Source: Fusobacteriota bacterium (GTDB taxonomy: Bacteria > Fusobacteriota > Fusobacteriia > JAPLKR01). Taken from it: a stretch of DNA of 11,172 nt. Under the pieces are notes generated by a model. It saw only the letters and a list, made by a program, of their open reading frames with translations. It did not search any database and was not told the origin of the DNA. Where the stretch lies: the NCBI GenBank assembly GCA_026387965.1, contig JAPLKR010000021.1, positions 1 to 11,172 of the forward strand, given 5' to 3'. The translations under genes were made by a program, and so were the position numbers. Below, piece by piece: positions 1 through 10,709 of the stretch; position 1 is the stretch's first letter; every line of letters begins with the position of its first letter.

Positions 1-99
1 GATCAGCCATGGGATAATATTAGAAATTATGATGAGAAACATGAATGGTTAAATGATAAGAATGCGATTGTTTGGCCAGAAAGAAGGAATAATGAGTAA
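1..99 (+). CDS. 3' end of upstream gene, possibly 5-deoxy-glucuronate isomerase (IolB)
   Basis: An open frame enters from the left edge and ends at TAA 97-99, giving the last 32 residues of a protein (ending ..PERRNNE). The stop lies inside the start region of iolD: the ATG of iolD (92-94) overlaps this frame by 8 nt (ATGAGTAA), so the two are translationally coupled and in one operon. The tail includes NYDEKHEWL, which loosely resembles the NDPxHEWI-like ending of IolB proteins as I remember them. IolB (5-deoxy-glucuronate to 2-deoxy-5-keto-D-gluconate) is also the enzyme that would complete the set next to iolD. Thirty-two residues are too few to be certain, so IolB is a guess from context and weak similarity. 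That it is the end of a real coding gene is much firmer. Confidence 0.55.
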
Positions 100-2029
100 T
101 AAGAAAATGACTGTAGCACAAGCGTTAGTAAAATTTATAAACAATCAGTACTTGTCAGTCGATGGTGAAGAGTGGCCTTTTGTAAATGGGATATTTACTA
201 TATTTGGACATGGAAATGTTCTAGGTTTAGGACAAGCATTAGAAGAAGACAGTGGCCATTTACATGTGTTACAAGGCAGAAATGAACAAGGAATGGGTCA
301 TGCTGCAATCGGATTTGCTAAACAAAATAAAAGACATAGAATATATGCGTGCACTTCTTCAGTTGGACCCGGTGCAGCTAATATGGTTACGGCTGCTGCA
401 ACAGCAACAGCTAATAGAATTCCAGTCCTATTTTTACCTGGTGATGTGTTTGCGACAAGACAACCAGATCCTGTGCTACAACAAATTGAGCAATTTCATG
501 ATTTGTCTATTTCAACAAATGATGCATTTAGGGCAGTTAGCAAATATTGGGATAGAATAACACGACCAGAACAATTAATGAGTGCTGCAATTAATGCTTT
601 TAGGGTCTTAACAGATCCTGAAAATACGGGGGCTGTAACTATTTGTCTACCTCAAGATGTTCAAGCTGAATGCTATGACTATCCAGAGTATTTTTTCAGA
701 AAACGTATTTGGTTATTAGAAAGAACACCACCTACTGTTACTATGTTAGAAAATGGATTAGAATTAATATTGAAGAGTAAACACCCTTTGATTATTTGTG
801 GAGGTGGGGTCAAATATTCTGCCGCAAGTAAAGAATTACAAACTTTTTCAGAAAAATTTAACATTCCCATTGCTGAAACTCAAGCTGGAAAAAGTGCTAT
901 TATTGGTTCGTATCATTTAAATTTAGGTGGAATTGGAACAACAGGAAATTTAGCCGCTAATATAATCGCTAAAAATTGTGATTTAGTGATTGGAATTGGG
1001 ACGCGATATACTGATTTTACAACTGGATCAAAATCTCTTTTTCAAAATGAAAATGTAAAGTTTTTAAATATAAACATTTCTAATTTTGATGCATTAAAAT
1101 TAGATGCTACTATGATGCGTTGTGATGCTAAAGTTGGCTTAACAACACTAATGAAAGAATTGGAAATACACAACTATTGTTCTGGTTATATCAATGAAAT
1201 TTCAGATGTAAAAGAAAAATGGAAAAAGGAATTAGAACGTTTAAACAGTATCAAATACGAAAAAAGCAAATTTATTCCCGAAGTATGTGGACAATTGGAC
1301 CATGTAATAGAGGAGTTTGTCGAATTAACAGGATCATCATTAACACAAACTCAAGTAATTGGAATTATCAATGAATTTCTAGATGAAACCGCTATAATAG
1401 TGGGGGCTTCAGGGAGCATTCCTGGAGATTTACAAAGAATGTGGTGTGCTAAAGGTGAAAATAGTTATCACATGGAATACGGTTATTCGTGTATGGGATA
1501 TGAAGTGAATGCTGCATTAGGCGTGAAATTAGCAGTTGGCAAACAGCGTGAAGTTTATAGCATGGTCGGAGATGGAGCATACCAAATGCTTCATAGTGAA
1601 CTTGTTACTTCAATACAGGAAAATCAAAAAATCAATATTATTCTCTTTGATAATATGGCTTTTGGTTGCATTAATAATCTTCAAATGGGCAATGGAATGG
1701 GAAGTTATGGAACAGAATTTAGGTATAGAGATGATAAAACCAATTCGTTAACAGGAAAACTTCAAACAATTGATTATGCTATGAGTGCCAAAGGGTATGG
1801 TTGTGAAACATATTCTGTAAGAAATGTACAAGAACTTAAAAATGCATTGGAGTCAGCAAAAAAATCTGATGTATCAACATTAATAGATATAAAAGTTTTG
1901 CCTAAAACAATGACTTCAGGGTATGAAAGTTGGTGGCACGCAGGAGTTGCACATTATACCAATAATACTAAAATAAATTCTGCTAGGACAGAAATGGATA
2001 AATTCTTAAAAAATGCTCGAAAATATTAG
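92..2029 (+). CDS. iolD: 3D-(3,5/4)-trihydroxycyclohexane-1,2-dione hydrolase (IolD), ThDP-dependent
   Basis: Cytoplasmic ThDP enzyme that opens the ring of trihydroxycyclohexane-1,2-dione to give 5-deoxy-D-glucuronate, the third step of myo-inositol catabolism. The 645-residue protein matches the Bacillus IolD family in length and along its whole course: [13 protein letters not shown] (33-45), the catalytic Glu in GRNEQG (E65), [10 protein letters not shown] (90-99), [12 protein letters not shown] (120-131), [13 protein letters not shown] (151-163), ETQAGKS (262-268), GIGTRYTDF (301-309), [12 protein letters not shown] (460-471), and the ThDP/Mg motif starting GDG (493-495) with Asn521. KVLPKTMT and SWWHAGVA near the C-terminus are also family hallmarks. 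I chose ATG 92, after AGAAGGA, because [12 protein letters not shown] lines up with known IolD N-termini; the longer frame from ATG 53 would add 13 unrelated residues. It overlaps the upstream gene by 8 nt, and dmlA follows after 12 nt. Confidence 0.96.
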
Positions 2030-2041
2030 AAAGGCGGAATA

Positions 2042-3109
2042 ATGAAATCATTTAAAATTGCTGTAATTCCAGGTGATGGTATAGGTAATGAGGTTATGGA
2101 TGAAGCATTGAAAATACTTAATAAAATTTCTAAAATACAGAACAATATAAATTTTGAGTTTGTTCATTTTGAATGGGGGTGCGAATACTATTTAAAACAT
2201 CAAAAAATGATGGATGATAATGGTTTAGAAATACTTAGAAATTTTGATGCAATATTGCTAGGAGCTGTTGGTTATCCAGGCGTTCCGGATCATATTTCTT
2301 TAAGAGATTTGCTGTTAAAAATACGCCAGGGATTTAACCAATATATTAATTATCGTCCTATAAAATTACTAGAAAATATTACCTGCCCTCTTGTTGGAAA
2401 AACTCATAAAGATATTGATATGATTTTTATTAGAGAAAATAGAGAAGGTGAATATTCGGGGATCGGTGGTATTTTTGCTGAAGGATTTGAACAAGAAACA
2501 GCCATTCAAACAAGTGTTTTTACACGCAAAAATACAGAAAAGGTTATGAGATATGCTTTTGAAGTTGCTAAAAAACGTGGAAAGCATAATAAAGTGACAA
2601 GTATAACAAAATCTAATGCTTTAAATTATAGTATGGTATTTTGGGATAAAATTTTTCAAGAGCAAGGAGAAAAATACCCAGATATCGAAACAAATCAACT
2701 TCATGTTGATGCAGCAGCAATGTTTATGATACAAAAGCCACAAATATTTGATACTGTAGTAGCGTCAAATTTATTTGGAGATATTCTAACAGATTTGGGA
2801 GCTGCGTTACAAGGAGGGTTAGGATTTGCAGCCGGGGGCAATATAAACCCCGAACGTGAATACCCTTCGATGTTCGAACCAGTTCACGGTAGTGCTCCAG
2901 ACATTGCAGGAAAAGGAGTTGCGAATCCTATTGCAATGATCCTTACAGCAGGGCTGATGCTAGAGCATTTAGGGCATTATGATTTATCTGTGAAAATAGA
3001 AAACGCGGTGAAGGAAATTTTAAAAAGCAAAAAAAATCTAACTCCTGATTTAGGTGGTATAGCATCTACGCAACAAGTTGGAAATTTATTGTGTGATTTA
3101 TTAATTTAA
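2042..3109 (+). CDS. dmlA: Tartrate dehydrogenase / D-malate dehydrogenase (decarboxylating) family protein
   Basis: Member of the beta-decarboxylating dehydrogenase superfamily (isocitrate, isopropylmalate, tartrate/D-malate). The 355 residues resemble the TDH/DmlA branch more than LeuB or Icd: IPGDGIGNEV (9-18), EWGCEYYLKHQKMM (44-57), GAVGYPGVPDHISL (74-87), RENREGEYS (131-139, usually RENTEGEYS), the catalytic Lys190 in TKSNAL, metal-binding Asp223, Asp247 and Asp251, VASNLFGDILTDLG (240-253) and FEPVHGSAPDI (278-288). DmlA oxidises D-malate with NAD+ to pyruvate and CO2; TDH also accepts tartrate and related 2-hydroxy acids. A good Shine-Dalgarno (AAAGGCGG) precedes the ATG, 12 nt after iolD. 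No leucine or tartrate genes are nearby. It sits among inositol genes and a GAPDH/PGK pair, which suggests D-malate formed from inositol as substrate (inference). The family call is firm; the substrate is not proven. Confidence 0.85.
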   Translation: MKSFKIAVIPGDGIGNEVMDEALKILNKISKIQNNINFEFVHFEWGCEYYLKHQKMMDDNGLEILRNFDAILLGAVGYPGVPDHISLRDLLLKIRQGFNQYINYRPIKLLENITCPLVGKTHKDIDMIFIRENREGEYSGIGGIFAEGFEQETAIQTSVFTRKNTEKVMRYAFEVAKKRGKHNKVTSITKSNALNYSMVFWDKIFQEQGEKYPDIETNQLHVDAAAMFMIQKPQIFDTVVASNLFGDILTDLGAALQGGLGFAAGGNINPEREYPSMFEPVHGSAPDIAGKGVANPIAMILTAGLMLEHLGHYDLSVKIENAVKEILKSKKNLTPDLGGIASTQQVGNLLCDLLI

Positions 3110-3119
3110 AGGAAAGGGG
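3110..3119 (+). promoter_or_regulatory. Strong Shine-Dalgarno serving a mini-ORF rather than iolE directly
   Basis: AGGAAAGGGG follows the dmlA stop directly. It is 3 nt before an ATG at 3123 but 33 nt before the iolE ATG at 3153, where no Shine-Dalgarno is visible (the preceding bases are CATACAAGATAA). Ribosomes loaded here would translate the mini-ORF and reach iolE by termination and restart. Confidence 0.5.
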
Positions 3120-3122
3120 TTG

Positions 3123-3152
3123 ATGTTGATTATGCGACATCATACAAGATAA
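3123..3152 (+). CDS. Nine-codon mini-ORF abutting iolE (putative coupling leader)
   Basis: ATG 3123 opens a nine-codon frame reading MLIMRHHTR, closed by TAA 3150-3152. The iolE ATG begins at the next base, in the same frame. The mini-ORF owns the only good ribosome-binding site in this gap, so it may act as a ribosome-delivery leader for iolE through TAA-ATG reinitiation. The alternative is that it is a former N-terminal extension of iolE cut off by a nonsense change. That is less likely, because iolE from 3153 already lines up with the family N-terminus (MSDVLLGIAPIGW). No function for the peptide itself is claimed. Confidence 0.35.
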   Translation: MLIMRHHTR

Positions 3153-4037
3153 ATGAGTGATGTATTACTTGGTATAGCACCCATTGGGTGGACTAATGAT
3201 GATTTACCTGAATTAGGAGGAACAAACACATTTGAACAGTGTATAAGTGAAATGGCGTTAGCAGGATTTTCAGGAAGTGAAATTGGGAATAAATATCCAA
3301 AAGACCCGGTTGCGTTAAACAAAGCATTAAAACTGCGAAACTTGACAATATGTAATGCGTGGTTTTCAACATACTTTACAACTAAATCACTAGACGAGGT
3401 TGAAAATGCATTCATTAAACATAGAGATTTTTTATATGCTGTTGGAGCACGCGTTATTGGAGTTTCAGAACAGGGAAATAGTATACAGGGAAATCTTTAT
3501 TTAAGTATTTTCGATAATAAACCAATATTTAGTGATTCTGAATGGGAAAAAGTAGCAAAAGGACTTAATAGACTTGCACAATTAGCTGAAGAAAAGGGAA
3601 TGACATTAGGCTATCACCATCACATGGGAACAGGTGTAGAATCATTCAAAGAAATTCAAGAATTGATGAATAGAACCAATCGGAATGTGTATTTATTATT
3701 TGATACAGGACACGCATATTTTGCTGGAATTGACCCTATAAAATTATTAAAAACATATATTGAACGAATTAATCATGTTCATTTAAAAGATGTTAGAAAA
3801 GATATTTTAGAAAAAGTAAAGAGAGAGCAACTTTCGTTTTTATCAGCTGTTAAAAATGGAGTATTTACAGTTCCAGGTGATGGAAATATAGAGTTTAAAC
3901 CCATTTTTGAGGTGCTAAAAGAAAACAATTATGTTGGATGGTATGTTGTTGAAGCAGAGCAAGACCCTTCAATCGCTAATCCATTCGAGTATGCTTTAAA
4001 AGCAAGAAGTTATATAAAAGAAACAGCACAAATATAG
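3153..4037 (+). CDS. iolE: Myo-inosose-2 dehydratase (IolE)
   Basis: Dehydrates 2-keto-myo-inositol (scyllo-inosose) to 3D-(3,5/4)-trihydroxycyclohexane-1,2-dione, the second step of inositol catabolism; cytoplasmic and metal-dependent in known members. The 294 residues form a xylose-isomerase-like TIM barrel of the usual IolE length. Visible family motifs are LGIAPIGWTNDD (6-17), GSEIGNKYP (41-49), LKLRNL (59-64), VSEQGNSIQG (104-113), YHHHMGTGV (154-162), DTGHAYF (184-190), HVHLKD (208-213), GVFTVPGDG (236-244) and VVEAEQDP (265-272), followed by NPFEYALKAR. Glu and His/Asp in these motifs supply the metal site. The start at ATG 3153 fits the family but lacks its own Shine-Dalgarno, because a mini-ORF with a strong one ends exactly at the base before it. 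iolG follows after 9 nt. Confidence 0.95.
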   Translation: MSDVLLGIAPIGWTNDDLPELGGTNTFEQCISEMALAGFSGSEIGNKYPKDPVALNKALKLRNLTICNAWFSTYFTTKSLDEVENAFIKHRDFLYAVGARVIGVSEQGNSIQGNLYLSIFDNKPIFSDSEWEKVAKGLNRLAQLAEEKGMTLGYHHHMGTGVESFKEIQELMNRTNRNVYLLFDTGHAYFAGIDPIKLLKTYIERINHVHLKDVRKDILEKVKREQLSFLSAVKNGVFTVPGDGNIEFKPIFEVLKENNYVGWYVVEAEQDPSIANPFEYALKARSYIKETAQI

Positions 4038-4046
4038 GAGGAAATT

Positions 4047-5045
4047 ATGAATACATTGACAGTAGGAATTATTGGAGCAGGAAGAATAGGGAAGGTTCAC
4101 GCAAACACAATACTAACGCAGCTTCCACATATAAAAATAAAATATATTGCAGATACTTGGGCTGGGGCTAAAAAATATGTTGAAAGCTTAAATGGGCTTC
4201 ATTTCACACAGAATATAGATGATATTTTTAATGATAAAGAAATTGAAGCAGTGTTAATTTGCTCATCAACGGATACACATGTTGAGTATATTATTAAAGC
4301 CGCTAATGCTAAGAAACATATTTTTTGTGAAAAACCCGTGGATCATGATTTAAATAGAATTATTTTAGCTAAAGAAGCAGTAGAACTAAATGGTGTTAAA
4401 TTTCAAATTGGGTTCAATAGGCGTTTTGACCATAATTTTTTAGCAGTAAAAAAGGCTATTGACACACATCAAATTGGTGACGTAAGATTTATCAATATAA
4501 CATCGAGAGATCCTGAAGCCCCTCCCATTGAATATGTGAAAGTATCTGGTGGAATGTTTATGGATATGACAATTCATGATTTCGATATGGCGCGTTTTTT
4601 AGCAGGATCAGAAGTAAAAGAGGTGTATGCAAAAGGTGTCGTAATGGTAGACAAAGCAATTGGAGATGCTGGAGATATTGATTCTGCTGCGATTATATTA
4701 ACATTTGAGAATGGAAGTATAGGAATTATTAATAATTGTAGAGAAGCGTCTTATGGCTATGATCAACGAGTAGAAGTATTTGGTTCTAAAGGGAGCGTAG
4801 AGATTAAAAATGATACAATTTCTTCTGCAATAATAAGTACCAAAAATGGTGTTGTAGCAGAAAAACCGTTGCACTTTTTTATGCAACGATACACACAAAG
4901 CTATAAAGATGAAATGATTCAGTTTATTGAGTCTATTCAAAATAACACTGAAACCAAAACAAATATTATTGATGGATTAAAATCAGTTGAAATTGCAAAA
5001 GCTGCGGTATTATCTTATAAAGAAAATCGTGTAGTTAAATTATAA
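4047..5045 (+). CDS. iolG: Inositol 2-dehydrogenase (IolG), Gfo/Idh/MocA family
   Basis: NAD+-dependent oxidation of myo-inositol to 2-keto-myo-inositol, the entry step of the pathway. The 332-residue protein has an N-terminal Rossmann domain with GIIGAGRIG (7-15), the family EKP motif with catalytic Lys96, and a C-terminal Gfo/Idh/MocA domain. GGMFMDMTIHDFDMARFL (168-185) is the hallmark of inositol 2-dehydrogenases; it supplies Asp173 and His177, matching the catalytic Asp172/His176 of Bacillus IolG. FNRRFD (123-128) is also conserved. Relatives in the family oxidise scyllo- or D-chiro-inositol, so the exact isomer is open. ATG 4047 is preceded by a consensus AGGAGGA overlapping the iolE stop codon. 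The GAPDH paralogue starts 31 nt downstream behind its own GGAGG. Confidence 0.92.
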   Translation: MNTLTVGIIGAGRIGKVHANTILTQLPHIKIKYIADTWAGAKKYVESLNGLHFTQNIDDIFNDKEIEAVLICSSTDTHVEYIIKAANAKKHIFCEKPVDHDLNRIILAKEAVELNGVKFQIGFNRRFDHNFLAVKKAIDTHQIGDVRFINITSRDPEAPPIEYVKVSGGMFMDMTIHDFDMARFLAGSEVKEVYAKGVVMVDKAIGDAGDIDSAAIILTFENGSIGIINNCREASYGYDQRVEVFGSKGSVEIKNDTISSAIISTKNGVVAEKPLHFFMQRYTQSYKDEMIQFIESIQNNTETKTNIIDGLKSVEIAKAAVLSYKENRVVKL

Positions 5046-5076
5046 TAAATTTATTAGAAAATAAGATGGAGGCAAA

Positions 5077-6105
5077 ATGAACAAAGTTAGAGTTGCAGTT
5101 GTGGGGTATGGTGTTATTGGTCAAAGATTAGCTGATGGAGTTGCGTTGCAAGAGGATATGGAGTTAGTAGGGGTAGTTGATGCAGAAGTTAATTTAGCAA
5201 CACGTGCTTTAAAAGAAAAGGGGATGACTTATAAATTGTACGTTGCATTTACAGAAGCAAAAGCGGCATTTGAAAAAGTAAATATCCCAATTTCTGGTAC
5301 TATGGAAGAACTTTTGGATCAAGTTGACATTGTTCTAGATTCAACTCCTGCAGGAATAGGTGCAAAAAATAAATCGCTATATGAAAAAAAAGGGGTTAAA
5401 GCGATTTTTCAAGGTGGTGAAAATAATAATATTGCAGATGTATTTTTTCATGGCTACGCAAATTTCGAATGTGGTGTCAATAAAGATTATTTGAAATTGA
5501 CTTCATGTAATACAACGGGACTAATAAGGGCAGTGGATTGTTTAGATAAAATAATTGGTATTGAGAAGATTGCAATTACAATCGTAAGACGAGTAGCTGA
5601 CCCTGGTGATTATCACAGAGGTTTAACTAATGCACTAAAAGTAGATAAAGCTCCAAGTCATCAAGCAGAAGATTTAATGAGTATAATGCCACATATAAAT
5701 GCAACTGGAATATTAATCCATACGCCAGTAACTCACGGTCATTTTATTAGTGTAGTAGCAACGCCTAAAAATTATATCAGTGTGGCTGAAGTTTTAGAAG
5801 CTTTTAGTTTGCATGACAGAATCAGAGTAGTTAGCTTAGATGAAGGATTTGAGGGAAATGCATCAATTTTTAGATATGCTCGTGATCTCGGAAGGCCGAG
5901 AGGTGATATTTATGAAATCTGTATTTGGAAAGATACTATTGTAAAATCAGGAAATGATATTATGTTTGGAATACACATTCCTCAAGAATCAGTCACGATT
6001 CCTGAAACTATTGATGCAATTCGTGCATCAATGGGTATGCAAGTGACTTCAGTTGAGGGAGTTTCTATGACAAATAAATATCTTAACCTACCGAGTTGGA
6101 AATAA
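5077..6105 (+). CDS. Type II (archaeal-type) glyceraldehyde-3-phosphate dehydrogenase paralogue
   Basis: A 342-residue protein of the archaeal GAPDH family, not the usual bacterial GapA. Motifs: VVGYGVIGQRLAD (8-20), DSTPAGIGAKN (88-98), KAIFQGGE (108-115), the catalytic Cys144 in SCNTTGL (143-149), RRVADP (171-176), SHQAEDL (194-200), THGH (219-222, holding the catalytic-type His), QES (303-305) and PETIDAIRA. The family oxidatively phosphorylates an aldehyde to an acyl phosphate. Asp35 at the end of the second strand (GVVDAEV), in place of the KTRP stretch of NADP-using archaeal enzymes, suggests NAD+. The archaeal SHHGPD is SHQAED here and VHQES is IPQES, so two family His residues are changed near the active site (by-eye alignment). 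Placed between iolG and a PGK paralogue, it may act on D-malate semialdehyde rather than glyceraldehyde 3-phosphate (inference). TGGAGG precedes the ATG. Confidence 0.88.
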   Translation: MNKVRVAVVGYGVIGQRLADGVALQEDMELVGVVDAEVNLATRALKEKGMTYKLYVAFTEAKAAFEKVNIPISGTMEELLDQVDIVLDSTPAGIGAKNKSLYEKKGVKAIFQGGENNNIADVFFHGYANFECGVNKDYLKLTSCNTTGLIRAVDCLDKIIGIEKIAITIVRRVADPGDYHRGLTNALKVDKAPSHQAEDLMSIMPHINATGILIHTPVTHGHFISVVATPKNYISVAEVLEAFSLHDRIRVVSLDEGFEGNASIFRYARDLGRPRGDIYEICIWKDTIVKSGNDIMFGIHIPQESVTIPETIDAIRASMGMQVTSVEGVSMTNKYLNLPSWK

Positions 6106-6115
6106 AGGAGGAAGT

Positions 6116-7396
6116 GTGAATAAACTCAATATAACATCGATGAGAGATTTGCCTCTTGATGGGAAAAAAGTTTTGCTTAGGCTTGATATTAATTCTCCAA
6201 TTGATATTAAAAATAAAAAAATTGTCAATACAAATCGAATTGATATGAGTTTGTTAACTTTAGAATATCTCATTTCTAAAAATTGTAAAATTGCTATTAT
6301 TGCTCATCAAGGAGATACACTTGACTATCAAAATTTAATTCCACTTAAAGAACATGCTGGTATTTTATCTAAAAAATTGAACAGAATTGTTGAATATGTA
6401 GATGATGTTTGCGGAATGTATGCAGTTGCAAAAATTCAATGTTTAAAAGAAGGAGAAATAATATTATTAGGTAATTTACGGTATTTATCGGAAGAAATAT
6501 CTACTTTTGAAACTGTGGTACCGTTAAAACCACCGGAAATGAAGAGTACTTATCTTGTGAGACAACTTGTGAAAGAATTTGATTTTTATATCAACGATGC
6601 TTTTGCAGCGGCACATAGAAATGCTCCTTCAATGGTAGGGTTCCAAGAGCATTTAATTTCAGGAGCAGGAGATTTGTTTTTTAAAGAAGTATCGGCATTG
6701 AATTCAGTAATGACTAATCCACAAAAACCGTCAGTTTTTGTATTAGGAGGAGCAAAAATATCAGACGCATTCGGTATGATGAAACAAGTATTAGAAAATA
6801 ATACAGCAGATAAAATCATTACCTTAGGAATTATAGGGGAAATTTTTTTAATAGCAAGTGGCGTTAATATTGGAAAGAAAAAAATGAAGTTTCTTCAGGA
6901 TAGAAAATTAGATGAATTTATTGAATCTGCTAAGGAATATTTAAAATTATACGCCAAAAAAATTGAAATACCTAGAGATTTAGCTTTTGAAAAAGATGGC
7001 AAGCGTGAAGAAATAAAGGTATGTGATCTGCCTATTGAAGAAATGTTTTTGGATATTGGAAAGAAAACAATAAGCGATTATGAAAAAATTATTTTGGAAG
7101 CTAAAAGTTTGTTTGCAAACGGACCTGCCGGTGTTTACGAAAACCCACTTTTTGAACTTGGAACTAGAAATATAATGGAAGCGATATCACGTTCATCAGC
7201 ATATTCTGTTATTGGTGGTGGTGATACAGTAACCGCAGCTACAAAATTTATTGATTTAAATACACTAGGATATGTTTGTACTGCGGGTGGAGCAATGGTC
7301 CGTTATCTGACTGGCAAAAAACTTCCACTCATTGAAGCGATGGAGAAAGCATACTATAAGTTAAATCTTAGAGAAGAGGAGCGAGATAATGGATAA
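6116..7396 (+). CDS. Archaeal-type phosphoglycerate kinase paralogue
   Basis: A 426-residue PGK-fold protein closest to archaeal PGKs, starting at GTG 6116 after AAAGGAGG. It transfers the acyl phosphate made by the GAPDH partner to ADP. Kept motifs: LLRLDINSPID (20-30), Arg41, NLRYLSEE (120-127, Arg122), DAFAAAHRNAPSMVGF (161-176, Arg168), LGGAKISD (210-217, Lys214), ANGPAGVYE (334-342) and the nucleotide loop GGGDT (367-371). The change to notice: the substrate loop normally HxGRP (archaeal HQxRP) reads HQGDT (64-68), so the conserved Arg is Asp67. That Arg belongs to the basic patch holding 3-phosphoglycerate, so this enzyme probably does not use 3-phosphoglycerate as its main substrate. 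A carboxylate analogue such as D-malate is my proposal. The 3' end overlaps the transketolase start by 8 nt. Confidence 0.88.
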   Translation: MNKLNITSMRDLPLDGKKVLLRLDINSPIDIKNKKIVNTNRIDMSLLTLEYLISKNCKIAIIAHQGDTLDYQNLIPLKEHAGILSKKLNRIVEYVDDVCGMYAVAKIQCLKEGEIILLGNLRYLSEEISTFETVVPLKPPEMKSTYLVRQLVKEFDFYINDAFAAAHRNAPSMVGFQEHLISGAGDLFFKEVSALNSVMTNPQKPSVFVLGGAKISDAFGMMKQVLENNTADKIITLGIIGEIFLIASGVNIGKKKMKFLQDRKLDEFIESAKEYLKLYAKKIEIPRDLAFEKDGKREEIKVCDLPIEEMFLDIGKKTISDYEKIILEAKSLFANGPAGVYENPLFELGTRNIMEAISRSSAYSVIGGGDTVTAATKFIDLNTLGYVCTAGGAMVRYLTGKKLPLIEAMEKAYYKLNLREEERDNG

Positions 7397-8246
7397 AACA
7401 GAAATTCAAAAAATTGAACGATTTGCATTGGAGATTCGGTTAGAAACACTAAAGCAAATTACAATAAGAGGGTTCGGACATCTTGGTGGAGCAATGTCTG
7501 TTGTAGAACTTCTTGCTGTATTATATGGAAAAGTTATGAATATTGATTCAAAGAATCCTAAAAAAAGAGATAGAGATTTTTTAGTGTGTTCTAAAGGTCA
7601 TGCTGGCCCCGCAATCTATTCAACACTTGCTTTAAAGGGATATTTTTCTATGGCAGAACTTATGACATTAAATCAAAATGGTACTAATTTACCTAGTCAT
7701 TGTGATATGAATAAAACTATTGGAATTGATATGACAACAGGGTCTTTAGGACAAGGAGTGTCAACAGCAATGGGAATTGCAGTTGGTAATAGGCTTGATG
7801 GGTTGAACAATTATACATATTTAATAGTAGGTGATGGAGAGCTTAATGAAGGTCAGTGTTGGGAAGGATTTATGTTTGCAGCACACCAAAAATTGGATAA
7901 TTTAATTTGCTTTCTGGATTATAATAAAAAACAATTAGATGGATATTTAGAAGAAATATGCAATCCTTTTGATTTTGAAGAAAAATTCAAAGCATTTGGA
8001 TTCGAGACACAAAAAGTTAATGGAGCTTCTATTGAAGAGATTTTTAAAGCTATTGAAAATGCAAAAAATAAAAAGGGAATGCCGCATGTGATTATCCTTG
8101 ATACGATAAAAGGGCAGGGGATTGACTTTGTTGTAGAAGATGGCGGACATCACATGAGATTTAGTGAAAAACATTTTATACAAGCATCTGAAGCAATCAA
8201 GCATTTTGAAAATCTGTTAAAAACCCCTGTAAATGGAGGAAATTAA
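7389..8246 (+). CDS. Transketolase, N-terminal (ThDP pyrophosphate-binding) subunit
   Basis: The first half of a two-gene transketolase, 285 residues, as usual for split enzymes. It binds the ThDP diphosphate and metal: GHLGGAMS (30-37, His31), CSKGHAGP (67-74, His71), TGSLGQGVS (117-125), and GDGELNEGQCWEG (148-160) with Asp149 and Asn179 for the metal. KGQGIDF (241-247) precedes the segment that in ordinary split transketolases reads roughly WHGKAP. Here it is GHHMRF (253-258): the active-site His is kept (His254) but its surroundings are not. The gene overlaps the PGK stop by 8 nt, and the C-terminal partner starts 2 nt after its stop, so both subunits are made together. Split transketolases in catabolic clusters can act on special ketoses, for example apulose 4-phosphate or sulfosugars, and the context here points to an inositol-derived ketose (inference). 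Confidence 0.92.
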   Translation: MDKTEIQKIERFALEIRLETLKQITIRGFGHLGGAMSVVELLAVLYGKVMNIDSKNPKKRDRDFLVCSKGHAGPAIYSTLALKGYFSMAELMTLNQNGTNLPSHCDMNKTIGIDMTTGSLGQGVSTAMGIAVGNRLDGLNNYTYLIVGDGELNEGQCWEGFMFAAHQKLDNLICFLDYNKKQLDGYLEEICNPFDFEEKFKAFGFETQKVNGASIEEIFKAIENAKNKKGMPHVIILDTIKGQGIDFVVEDGGHHMRFSEKHFIQASEAIKHFENLLKTPVNGGN

Positions 8247-8248
8247 TT

Positions 8249-9220
8249 ATGTTAAATTTTAAATTATCAAAGGAACATGGATTAGAAAAAAATGCTATGA
8301 GAACTGTCTATTGCGATACATTAATTGCATTAGCAAATAGCAATAAAAATATAGTTGCGCTGGATGCAGATTTAATGAGTTCCATGGGAATGAATGCATT
8401 CAAAAAAACATTTCCGGATAGAATGTTCAATTGTGGTGTTCAAGAAGCGAATATGATTGGAGTTGCAGCAGGGCTTTCTTCTATTGGTAAAATTCCTTAT
8501 GCTCATACATTTGGACCATTTGCGTCAAGAAGGTGTTTTGATCAAATTTTTCTATCATGTGCTTATTCAAAGCAAAATGTTAGAATTATTGGCTCTGATC
8601 CTGGAATTACCGCAGCTTATAACGGTGGAACACATATGCCATTTGAAGATTTAGCTTTAATGAGAACAGTTCCTGAAATGAATATTATTGTGCCATCAGA
8701 TTCTGTAATGTTAGAAGATATTATTCGAAAAACTGAAAATTTATATGGAAATTTTTATATTCAATTGCTTCGTAACAATGCAGTTTCAATTTATGAAAAG
8801 GGGTCTAAGTTTACACTTGGTAAAGCTAATAAGATTGTTGAAGGCAAAGATATTACCATTATTGCAAATGGAATAATGGTTTCTGAATGTTTAATTGCAG
8901 CAGAGCAACTTTCAAAAATAGGAATTCATGCAAGAATATTAGATATGTTTTGTTTGAAACCTATCGATAAAGAATCTATTCTAAATGCGGCACAAGAAAC
9001 AGGAGCAATTGTTACTGTAGAGAATCATAATATTATAAACGGATTAGCATCGGCTGTTTCAGAAGTTATAGTAGAAGAATGTTTAGTACCAATGGGTAAA
9101 ATTGGAGTAAGAGATCAATTTGGGCAAGTTGGAAGTGTAGAATATTTAAAAGAAGTATATCATTTAACGCCTCAAGATATTGTTGAAGAGGTTATAAAAA
9201 CATTAAAGCGAAAAAAATAA
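8249..9220 (+). CDS. Transketolase, C-terminal (pyrimidine-binding plus C-terminal domain) subunit
   Basis: The 323-residue partner of the preceding subunit. The catalytic Glu66 lies in GVQEANMIGVAAGLS (63-77), followed by YAHTFGPFASRRCFDQI (84-100). Residues 201-323 form the C-terminal domain (ITIIANGIMV, VTVENHN). Compared by eye with yeast/E. coli transketolase, several substrate residues are kept: Arg18, Ser44, His129 (GGTH) and Arg175 (LLRNN). Two are changed: the donor-phosphate-binding His (yeast His469, usually in THAG or THDS) is Asp117 in SDPG, and the specificity Asp (yeast Asp477, in GEDG) is Asn125 in AYNGG. This fits a donor without a terminal phosphate, such as 2-deoxy-5-keto-D-gluconate (inference). 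GGAGGA precedes the ATG. The transporter gene follows after 63 nt. Confidence 0.92.
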   Translation: MLNFKLSKEHGLEKNAMRTVYCDTLIALANSNKNIVALDADLMSSMGMNAFKKTFPDRMFNCGVQEANMIGVAAGLSSIGKIPYAHTFGPFASRRCFDQIFLSCAYSKQNVRIIGSDPGITAAYNGGTHMPFEDLALMRTVPEMNIIVPSDSVMLEDIIRKTENLYGNFYIQLLRNNAVSIYEKGSKFTLGKANKIVEGKDITIIANGIMVSECLIAAEQLSKIGIHARILDMFCLKPIDKESILNAAQETGAIVTVENHNIINGLASAVSEVIVEECLVPMGKIGVRDQFGQVGSVEYLKEVYHLTPQDIVEEVIKTLKRKK

Positions 9221-9283
9221 GGTATTAATAGGGTGTGGCTTCTTAAACTATGTGTAATAAAATAATATAATAAAGAGGTACTT

Positions 9284-10709
9284 ATGTCAGAATTTAAATT
9301 GGAAGCTAGGAATAGTAGTGATCAGATAGAAAATAAAAGTAAGTCAAGATTTATGTATTTTGTTGCTATTATTGCAGCTTTGGGTGGAATATTATTTGGA
9401 TTTGATACAGGGGTAATATCGGGCGCTTTAATATTTGTAAACAAGACATTTAATCCAAGTATTGCAAGTCAGCAATTAGCCGTGAGCATGGTAGTTGCTG
9501 GAGCCTTCGTTGGATGTTTATTAAGTGGTAAATTATCTAATACGCTTGGAAGAAAAAAATTACTTATCATTGTAGCATATATTTTTATTATTGGTACAGC
9601 AATATGTGCATTAGCACCAACCATGGACATATTAATAATAGGTAGATTTGTATTAGGATTAGCAGTAGGAGTAGCATCATACACAGCGCCACTTTTTATT
9701 GCAGAAATTTCGATTCCAAGTAAACGCGGGTCAATGGTTTTATTGAATGGGTTTTGTATAACAGGTGCTCAAGCAATTGCAGTTTTATTAGATTGGTGGC
9801 TTGCAAGATATAGCTATACAATTAATTGGAGAATAATGATGGGACTTGCCATTATCCCGTCAATATTACTCTTAGCAGGAATGATTATAGCCCCGAATTC
9901 TCCAAGATGGTTAATCATGGTTGGAAGAGTAGAGGAAGCAAGAAGAGTTCTCAGAAAAATCAGAGATTTTGATAAAGTAGAAATTGAAATACAGGAGATA
10001 TTGAAAAGTTTGAATCAAAAAAAAGGAACTTTGTCACTATTGTTTTCGAAACGCATTAGACCAGTTTTGATTATTGGGCTAATCTTAGGAATTGGGCAAC
10101 AATTTTCTGGATTTAATACCGTTATGTATTATGGCCCTGAAATATTTAAACAAGTAGGATTTCATGGAAATAGTGCTACAATAATGGCAACATTTGGAAT
10201 GGCAGTAATAAATTTTTTGATTACTATTGTTTGCATGATCTTTGTTGATAAACTTGGAAGAAGAAAATTGCTTATAATTGGTATGTTATTAGCCACAATT
10301 TGTCAATTTTTATTAGGAGAAATAATAAAAGTTGGTGTAGATCATTTTCCGGGTGGTGCATACACAGCTTTTATAGTAATTATGGTTTTTGTTGTTGGAT
10401 ACGCAGGAAGTTTAGGAACACTTTTCTGGTTAATAATTTCAGAAATATATCCGCTTGAGGTTCGAGGAATTGGAATGAGTTTTGTAGCAGGTATTCAATG
10501 GTTAGCAAATTTTATAGTTTCGGCAACTTTTTTTAACAGTAATGAGTATTTATGGTGGCGGCACGTTTTGGTTTTATGGTACCGCATTGTTAATTATACT
10601 TATTTTCATAATTATATATGTTCCCGAAACAAAAGGCGTTTCTTTAGAAGTGATAGAACTAAATTTAGATAAAGGAACAAAATTAAGAGATTTAGGTAAA
10701 ATATCATAA
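9284..10709 (+). pseudogene. Sugar:proton symporter (MFS, GalP/AraE/IolT type), frameshifted near the 3' end; likely inositol transporter
   Basis: Twelve-helix MFS sugar porter in the cytoplasmic membrane, preceded by AAAGAGGT. Motifs in order: GGILFGFDTGVISGAL (34-49), LGRKK (88-92), GRFVLGLAVG (120-129), PNSPRWL (204-210), GQQFSGFN (271-278) and LGRRKLL (324-330). The first frame runs to TAA 10670-10672 (462 aa), but its last ~46 residues are nonsense. The proper ending, reading GGGTFWFYG, a last helix, the sugar-porter signature PETKGVSLE and KLRDLGKIS, is in the next frame and stops at TAA 10707-10709. Removing one T from the seven-T run at 10528-10534 joins the frames into ATFLTVM.., just as GalP/AraE read ATFLT, giving 474 aa. 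Either a real inactivating or phase-variable indel, or a homopolymer sequencing error. The operon context suggests inositol as substrate; similarity alone would also allow galactose or arabinose. Confidence 0.85.
10528..10534 (+). repeat. Seven-T homopolymer at the transporter frameshift
   Basis: The run sits exactly where the transporter reading frame changes. Six Ts would restore a full-length protein with a GalP/AraE-like junction. Homopolymers of this length are slippage sites and also common sequencing-error sites. Confidence 0.8.

Follow-up and report, generated by a model that had tools for sequence, protein, structure and literature searches.

The canonical myo-inositol pathway leads through IolG, IolE, IolD and IolB to 2-deoxy-5-keto-D-gluconate (DKG) and continues with the kinase IolC, cleavage by IolJ or a DUF2090 protein to dihydroxyacetone phosphate and malonate semialdehyde, and IolA; an alternative DUF2090 aldolase fused to IolC has also been described (PMC9007349). 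In the sulfo-transketolase pathway, experiments with recombinant enzymes showed that a two-gene transketolase, SqwGH, takes the ketol unit from a sulfonated 2-ketose, which is anionic and not phosphorylated, and passes it to glyceraldehyde 3-phosphate (PMC11659671). The locus analyzed here is an operon of a Fusobacteriota bacterium on contig C107 (GenBank accession number JAPLKR010000021.1), whose 11,172 nucleotides, referred to as the window, belong to a 1.79-Mb genome that is 95.5% complete. The operon shares IolG, IolE, IolD and IolB, and hence the route to DKG, with the canonical pathway, but has neither IolC nor IolJ/DUF2090, and it contains genes for a split transketolase (TK), a type II glyceraldehyde-3-phosphate dehydrogenase (GAPDH) paralogue, a phosphoglycerate kinase (PGK) paralogue and a tartrate/D-malate dehydrogenase. 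With a probability of roughly 0.83, we read it as encoding a kinase- and aldolase-independent inositol pathway, in which TK would cleave DKG into a two-carbon (C2) unit and D-malate semialdehyde.

Read from its CH2OH end, DKG (HOOC-CH2-CHOH-CHOH-CO-CH2OH) is a 2-ketose with the D-threo arrangement at C3 and C4 that is found in fructose and xylulose. Removal of the two-carbon ketol unit leaves (R)-3-hydroxy-4-oxobutanoate, or D-malate semialdehyde, the carboxylate analogue of D-glyceraldehyde 3-phosphate, and this aldehyde is oxidized to (R)-malate (D-malate), on which DmlA-type enzymes act. In the proposed pathway, IolG, IolE, IolD and IolB would convert myo-inositol to DKG, and the split TK would pass the two-carbon ketol unit of DKG on to an acceptor; this is probably an aldose phosphate, for instance glyceraldehyde 3-phosphate, which would become xylulose 5-phosphate. 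The D-malate semialdehyde released would be converted to malyl phosphate by the GAPDH paralogue, acting as a phosphorylating D-malate semialdehyde dehydrogenase, and the PGK paralogue would form D-malate and ATP from malyl phosphate and ADP. The tartrate/D-malate dehydrogenase would then yield pyruvate, CO2 and NADH, a step that in most relatives would fall to LarAH6, a nickel malate racemase, joined in many of them by malic enzyme. Every reaction past DKG, the TK acceptor and the cofactors are inferred. An earlier note, made from the window sequence alone, had proposed this route; its stereochemical deduction from DKG to D-malate holds as established chemistry, and the TK, GAPDH, PGK and DmlA steps are supported by comparative genomics and residue changes as a strong genomic prediction, whereas the occurrence of the module beyond iolD clusters was not foreseen.

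The same enzyme families, GAPDH followed by PGK, act in the same order and with the same logic of substrate-level phosphorylation in lower glycolysis. The operon differs from it in the proposed substrate, D-malate semialdehyde, in the replacement of phosphate-contact residues and in the archaeal type II of its GAPDH. It resembles the sulfo-transketolase pathway in the two-gene transketolase logic, here a prediction, and differs in a carboxylate rather than sulfonate substrate, in the GAPDH/PGK pair, which is missing there, and in the products; no gene for sulfoquinovose isomerase or another sulfonate-specific function was found in the window, where all nine genes are otherwise assigned. In the Thermotoga-type inositol pathway (IolM, IolN and IolO), IolN stands beside two modules related to the one described here, whereas the window opens the ring with IolE and IolD. 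None of IolM, IolN and IolO was recognized among the window proteins, IolE showing a weak resemblance to IolO (24 bits versus 300). No account of the proposed pathway turned up when the open-access literature was searched for links of inositol to a transketolase, to D-malate, to malate racemase or to malic enzyme, and the papers cited here do not describe it.

The kinase and the aldolase of the canonical route were searched for in the whole genome. For iolC (TIGR04382, cut-off 300), the best score was about 87-89 bits, with none over the cut-off, and the PfkB matches comprised a ribokinase, two 1-phosphofructokinase-like proteins, HldE and one weak partial match. No IolJ-type class II aldolase was found, as the single class II aldolase of the genome scored over the cut-off as the housekeeping fructose-bisphosphate aldolase (NF005481, TIGR01859). 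The gene iolA was absent from the window proteins, the part of the genome searched for it. The possible iolB end at the window start, pointed out in the earlier note, is supported by contig C11. This contig ends with an rpiR-type regulator and a partial iolB (TIGR04378) cut by the contig end, which presumably form the start of the operon and join the iolB C-terminus of the window. The two contigs abut without overlap, and a few iolB codons are probably missing between them. Upstream of rpiR, contig C11 carries unrelated genes; iolC and iolJ just upstream, which the earlier note had named as a refuting result, were thereby ruled out.

The window GAPDH was scanned against genome_contigs (84,980 species), giving 33 loci in 32 genomes, most of them 62-75% identical, from Clostridia and Lachnospiraceae, Christensenella, Synergistaceae, Spirochaetes, Coriobacteriia and Alkalibacter; together with the window genome, these are the 33 carrier genomes. 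Of the 33 loci, 21 had true iol genes on one fragment with the GAPDH gene, mostly accompanied by PGK and the two TK chains and arranged differently from locus to locus, and across the carriers the GAPDH-PGK-TK set usually occurred together with iolB, iolD, iolE and iolG. Because gene order is shuffled while content is constant, this argues for a shared function over simple co-inheritance. The remaining 97 genomes from the phylum of the window genome contained no relative of this GAPDH, which suggests that it was gained horizontally. The gene iolD was over the cut-off in 26 of the 33 carriers and split in one more, and iolC was over the cut-off in 4. In a sample of 398 genomes drawn evenly from the phylum of one carrier, iolD was found in 17 genomes, 15 of which also had iolC, and the remaining two were exactly the two iolD genomes that carry the operon-type GAPDH. 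In one of these, G176, an ATP-binding cassette (ABC) transporter, gap2, pgk, tktN, tktC, iolB, iolD, iolE, iolG and a racemase gene follow in one run. The survey of other genomes proposed in the earlier note, in which GAPDH-PGK-TK accompanied iolB, iolD, iolE and iolG in many lineages and iolC was scarce among the carriers, lends the pathway independent support.

No other line of evidence argues as strongly for the proposed intermediate as the step that consumes D-malate, for which two unrelated solutions occur within one gene set. The tartrate/D-malate dehydrogenase of the window is encoded in none of the 33 related loci. Two other families recur there: a nickel malate racemase of the LarAH6 family of about 416 residues (585 and 562 bits versus a cut-off of 500), whose closest solved structure is the malate racemase Mar2 (PMC7583248), and a malic enzyme family of about 390 residues, present in 15 of the loci. 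That a malate racemase, in many cases together with malic enzyme, takes the place of DmlA in nearly all relatives points to D-malate as the node. Counted genome-wide, LarAH6 exceeded the cut-off in 28 of the 33 carriers; among 14 control genomes, one had such a match. None was over the cut-off in the window genome, whose operon has the DmlA-type gene, nor in G120, where DmlA-type genes lie on another contig; G099 gave a partial racemase match only, and in G109 the start of a racemase directly behind PGK was cut by the contig end. The 1.4-Mb genome G114 was the sole carrier with neither a racemase nor a DmlA-type gene, and G129 had both enzymes.

Substrate-contact positions of the operon enzymes were changed throughout the family. 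The equivalent of PGK Arg65, which we take to bind the 3-phosphate of phosphoglycerate within a basic patch, was Asp, Ser or Gly in 30 of 30 operon PGKs and Arg or Lys in 9 of 9 housekeeping PGKs from the same genome set, and the remaining substrate-binding Arg and His residues were conserved. In TK, the equivalent of His416 (human numbering), a residue that presumably contacts the substrate phosphate, was Asp in all 22 operon proteins and His in the split TK of C. hydrogenoformans, and the Asp424 equivalent was Asn (22/22); the thiamine diphosphate site, the Arg near residue 474 and the Gln/His pocket were retained. The SHxGPD loop of GAPDH showed a Gly-to-Ala change in 33 of 33 proteins, plus further clade-specific changes, and the bearing of this loop change on the substrate is suggestive only. 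The changes at contact positions in PGK, TK and GAPDH fit a substrate in which a carboxylate replaces the phosphate.

Three alternative explanations were weighed. TK, GAPDH and PGK could be ordinary spare enzymes of the pentose phosphate pathway and glycolysis working on trioses, with DKG phosphorylated by an unrecognized kinase and cleaved by the lone class II aldolase; the genome does encode that aldolase and two 1-phosphofructokinase-like PfkB proteins, one of which might be the kinase. This explanation was rejected as very improbable on the scarcity of iolC among the carriers (4/33), the family-wide changes at substrate-contact positions, and the recurring D-malate dehydrogenase or malate racemase, which a classical route does not need. 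It is about as improbable that the module handles another ketose acid here, for instance 5-ketogluconate, giving tartrate semialdehyde and then tartrate for a TTC-type enzyme. The window dehydrogenase does score as a tartrate dehydrogenase, and in two loci the TK-GAPDH-PGK genes adjoin inositol genes of the IolN type, which yield a product with the C2 hydroxyl retained; however, the IolN-adjacent TKs differ in the substrate motif, iolE, iolD and iolB of the window give a 2-deoxy product, no IolN was recognized there, and relatives with the same iol genes have malate racemase and malic enzyme. A different fate of the C2 unit is unlikely, yet deserves more weight than either of these: the thiamine pyrophosphate (TPP) enzyme would pass the ketol to a non-phosphorylated acceptor or free glycolaldehyde, leaving D-malate semialdehyde and the later steps unchanged. 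The Asp at the TK phosphate-contact position speaks for it, as does the replacement of the split TK by a pyruvate-dehydrogenase-like E1 with E2/E3-like frames in two related loci. It is opposed by the other TK motifs, which are kept, by the window operon, where profile matches of the proteins revealed no E2 or E3 gene, and by the sulfo-transketolase precedent, in which glyceraldehyde 3-phosphate is the acceptor (PMC11659671).

Other observations tell against the D-malate semialdehyde pathway as proposed. The change of the phosphate-contact His leaves the TK acceptor uncertain, and TTC-family enzymes also take tartrate and other substrates. Most of the relatives are metagenome assemblies, in which absences are softer than presences. 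In the 398-genome sample, G123, one of the two genomes with iolD and without iolC, is the sample center, and only G176 is independent. Four carriers also possess iolC. In 6 of the 33 carriers, among them Christensenella hongkongensis and Alkalibacter mobilis, the module was found without iolD over the cut-off, and the same held for 6 of the 8 carriers in the drawn sample.

The occurrence without iolD indicates that inositol is probably one of several feeds of the module. In Alkalibacter, gap2 is preceded by a tripartite ATP-independent periplasmic (TRAP)-like transporter, a zinc dehydrogenase and a mannonate-oxidoreductase-like short-chain dehydrogenase/reductase (SDR). Because 2-deoxymannonate and 2-deoxygluconate are one compound, oxidation at C5 could be another source of DKG there. 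In the loci L136 and L137 (genomes G383 and G312), IolN (541 and 553 bits, cut-off 245) adjoins TK-GAPDH-PGK, suggesting a second inositol-opening route that feeds a similar module; the TKs show yet another substrate motif, and the product might be tartrate semialdehyde. In L133 and L134 (G233 and G200), gap2, pgk, malate racemase and malic enzyme genes stand beside lipoyl/E2- and E3-like frames, and no split TK was seen. The chances are about even that TK-GAPDH-PGK, joined to malate racemase, malic enzyme or D-malate dehydrogenase, forms a portable module, similar to lower glycolysis, for four-carbon acid semialdehydes. Its front ends would be IolBDEG, IolN-type enzymes, sugar-acid dehydrogenases or pyruvate-dehydrogenase-like complexes, and in several bacterial phyla it would conserve energy from the semialdehyde of malate or tartrate.

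Further variation in gene arrangement was noted among the carriers. Alkalibacter mobilis has two copies of the module, one of them (L145) without TK. The iolD-less module of Alkalibacter mobilis and Christensenella hongkongensis (L045/L144, L145 and L046) is preceded by genes for transporters, zinc dehydrogenases, SDRs or a lactonase-like protein. L133 also contains the pyruvate-dehydrogenase-like E1 and a molybdenum hydroxylase. The Spirochaeta genome G120 (L140, L141 and L142) combines a classical iol cluster, iolC included, with a separate cluster of iolB-TK-GAPDH-PGK; a third contig carries two DmlA-like genes.

Inositol and phytate rank among the main compounds of plants and nutrients of the gut, and the gene set recurs in related gut bacteria and other anaerobes. 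If the pathway is correct, no ATP would be spent on DKG, one would be gained, and pyruvate would be formed. GAPDH and PGK would then have been recruited to a non-phosphorylated dicarboxylate, for which we know of no earlier description. The malate racemases of the LarAH6 family, which had no assigned in vivo role (PMC7583248), would receive a physiological one; a further malate racemase has been described (PMC11770544). A survey of inositol catabolism demanded at least three of iolB, iolC, iolD and iolE and blamed a missing fourth gene on incomplete sequence, assembly errors or frameshifts (PMC9430895); some of these genomes may instead use the TK route.

The window features are listed in Table 1. 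Nine adjacent, tightly spaced genes with identities backed by hidden Markov model (HMM) matches follow the iolB fragment, in agreement with the single operon described in the earlier note.

Table 1. Features of the operon in the window, with strand and supporting matches
Feature	Position	Strand	Support
iolB C-terminus (5-deoxy-glucuronate isomerase)	1..99	+	translation matches iolB C-termini of relatives; remainder at end of contig C11 (L001)
iolD, trihydroxycyclohexane-dione hydrolase	92..2029	+	TIGR04377, 928.8 bits, cut-off 715
Tartrate/D-malate dehydrogenase (DmlA/TTC type)	2042..3109	+	TIGR02089, 489 bits, cut-off 470.4
iolE, myo-inosose-2 dehydratase	3153..4037	+	TIGR04379, 407 bits, cut-off 290
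iolG, inositol 2-dehydrogenase	4047..5045	+	TIGR04380, 451 bits, cut-off 355
Type II GAPDH paralogue	5077..6105	+	NF003251, 403 bits, cut-off 185
PGK paralogue	6116..7396	+	PF00162, 349 bits, cut-off 27
TK N-terminal chain	7389..8246	+	PF00456; best solved relative split TK 6yak
TK C-terminal chain	8249..9220	+	PF02779, PF02780; best solved relative 6yaj
Major facilitator superfamily (MFS) sugar porter	9284..10709	+	TIGR00879, 344 bits

For iolD, the start given in Table 1 is more likely than the listed open reading frame start at 53. The best solved relative of the tartrate/D-malate dehydrogenase was the tartrate dehydrogenase/decarboxylase 3flk. The type II GAPDH was over curated cut-offs, with the catalytic Cys and the RRxADP motif kept, and the TPP-binding and catalytic motifs were present in the N- and C-terminal chains of TK. 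A second PGK is encoded elsewhere in the genome. Bacterial plasmids repeatedly carry type II GAPDH genes; their proteins, used only as an outgroup, were 34-36% identical to the window protein. The three plasmid loci read (L048-L050) had other contexts, with glgP (alpha-glucan phosphorylase) close by and neighbors that otherwise differed. The MFS sugar porter is a probable inositol transporter. Its gene is frameshifted near 10,540-10,570, by a sequencing error or a real mutation, and the C-terminus runs on in another frame to about 10,709.

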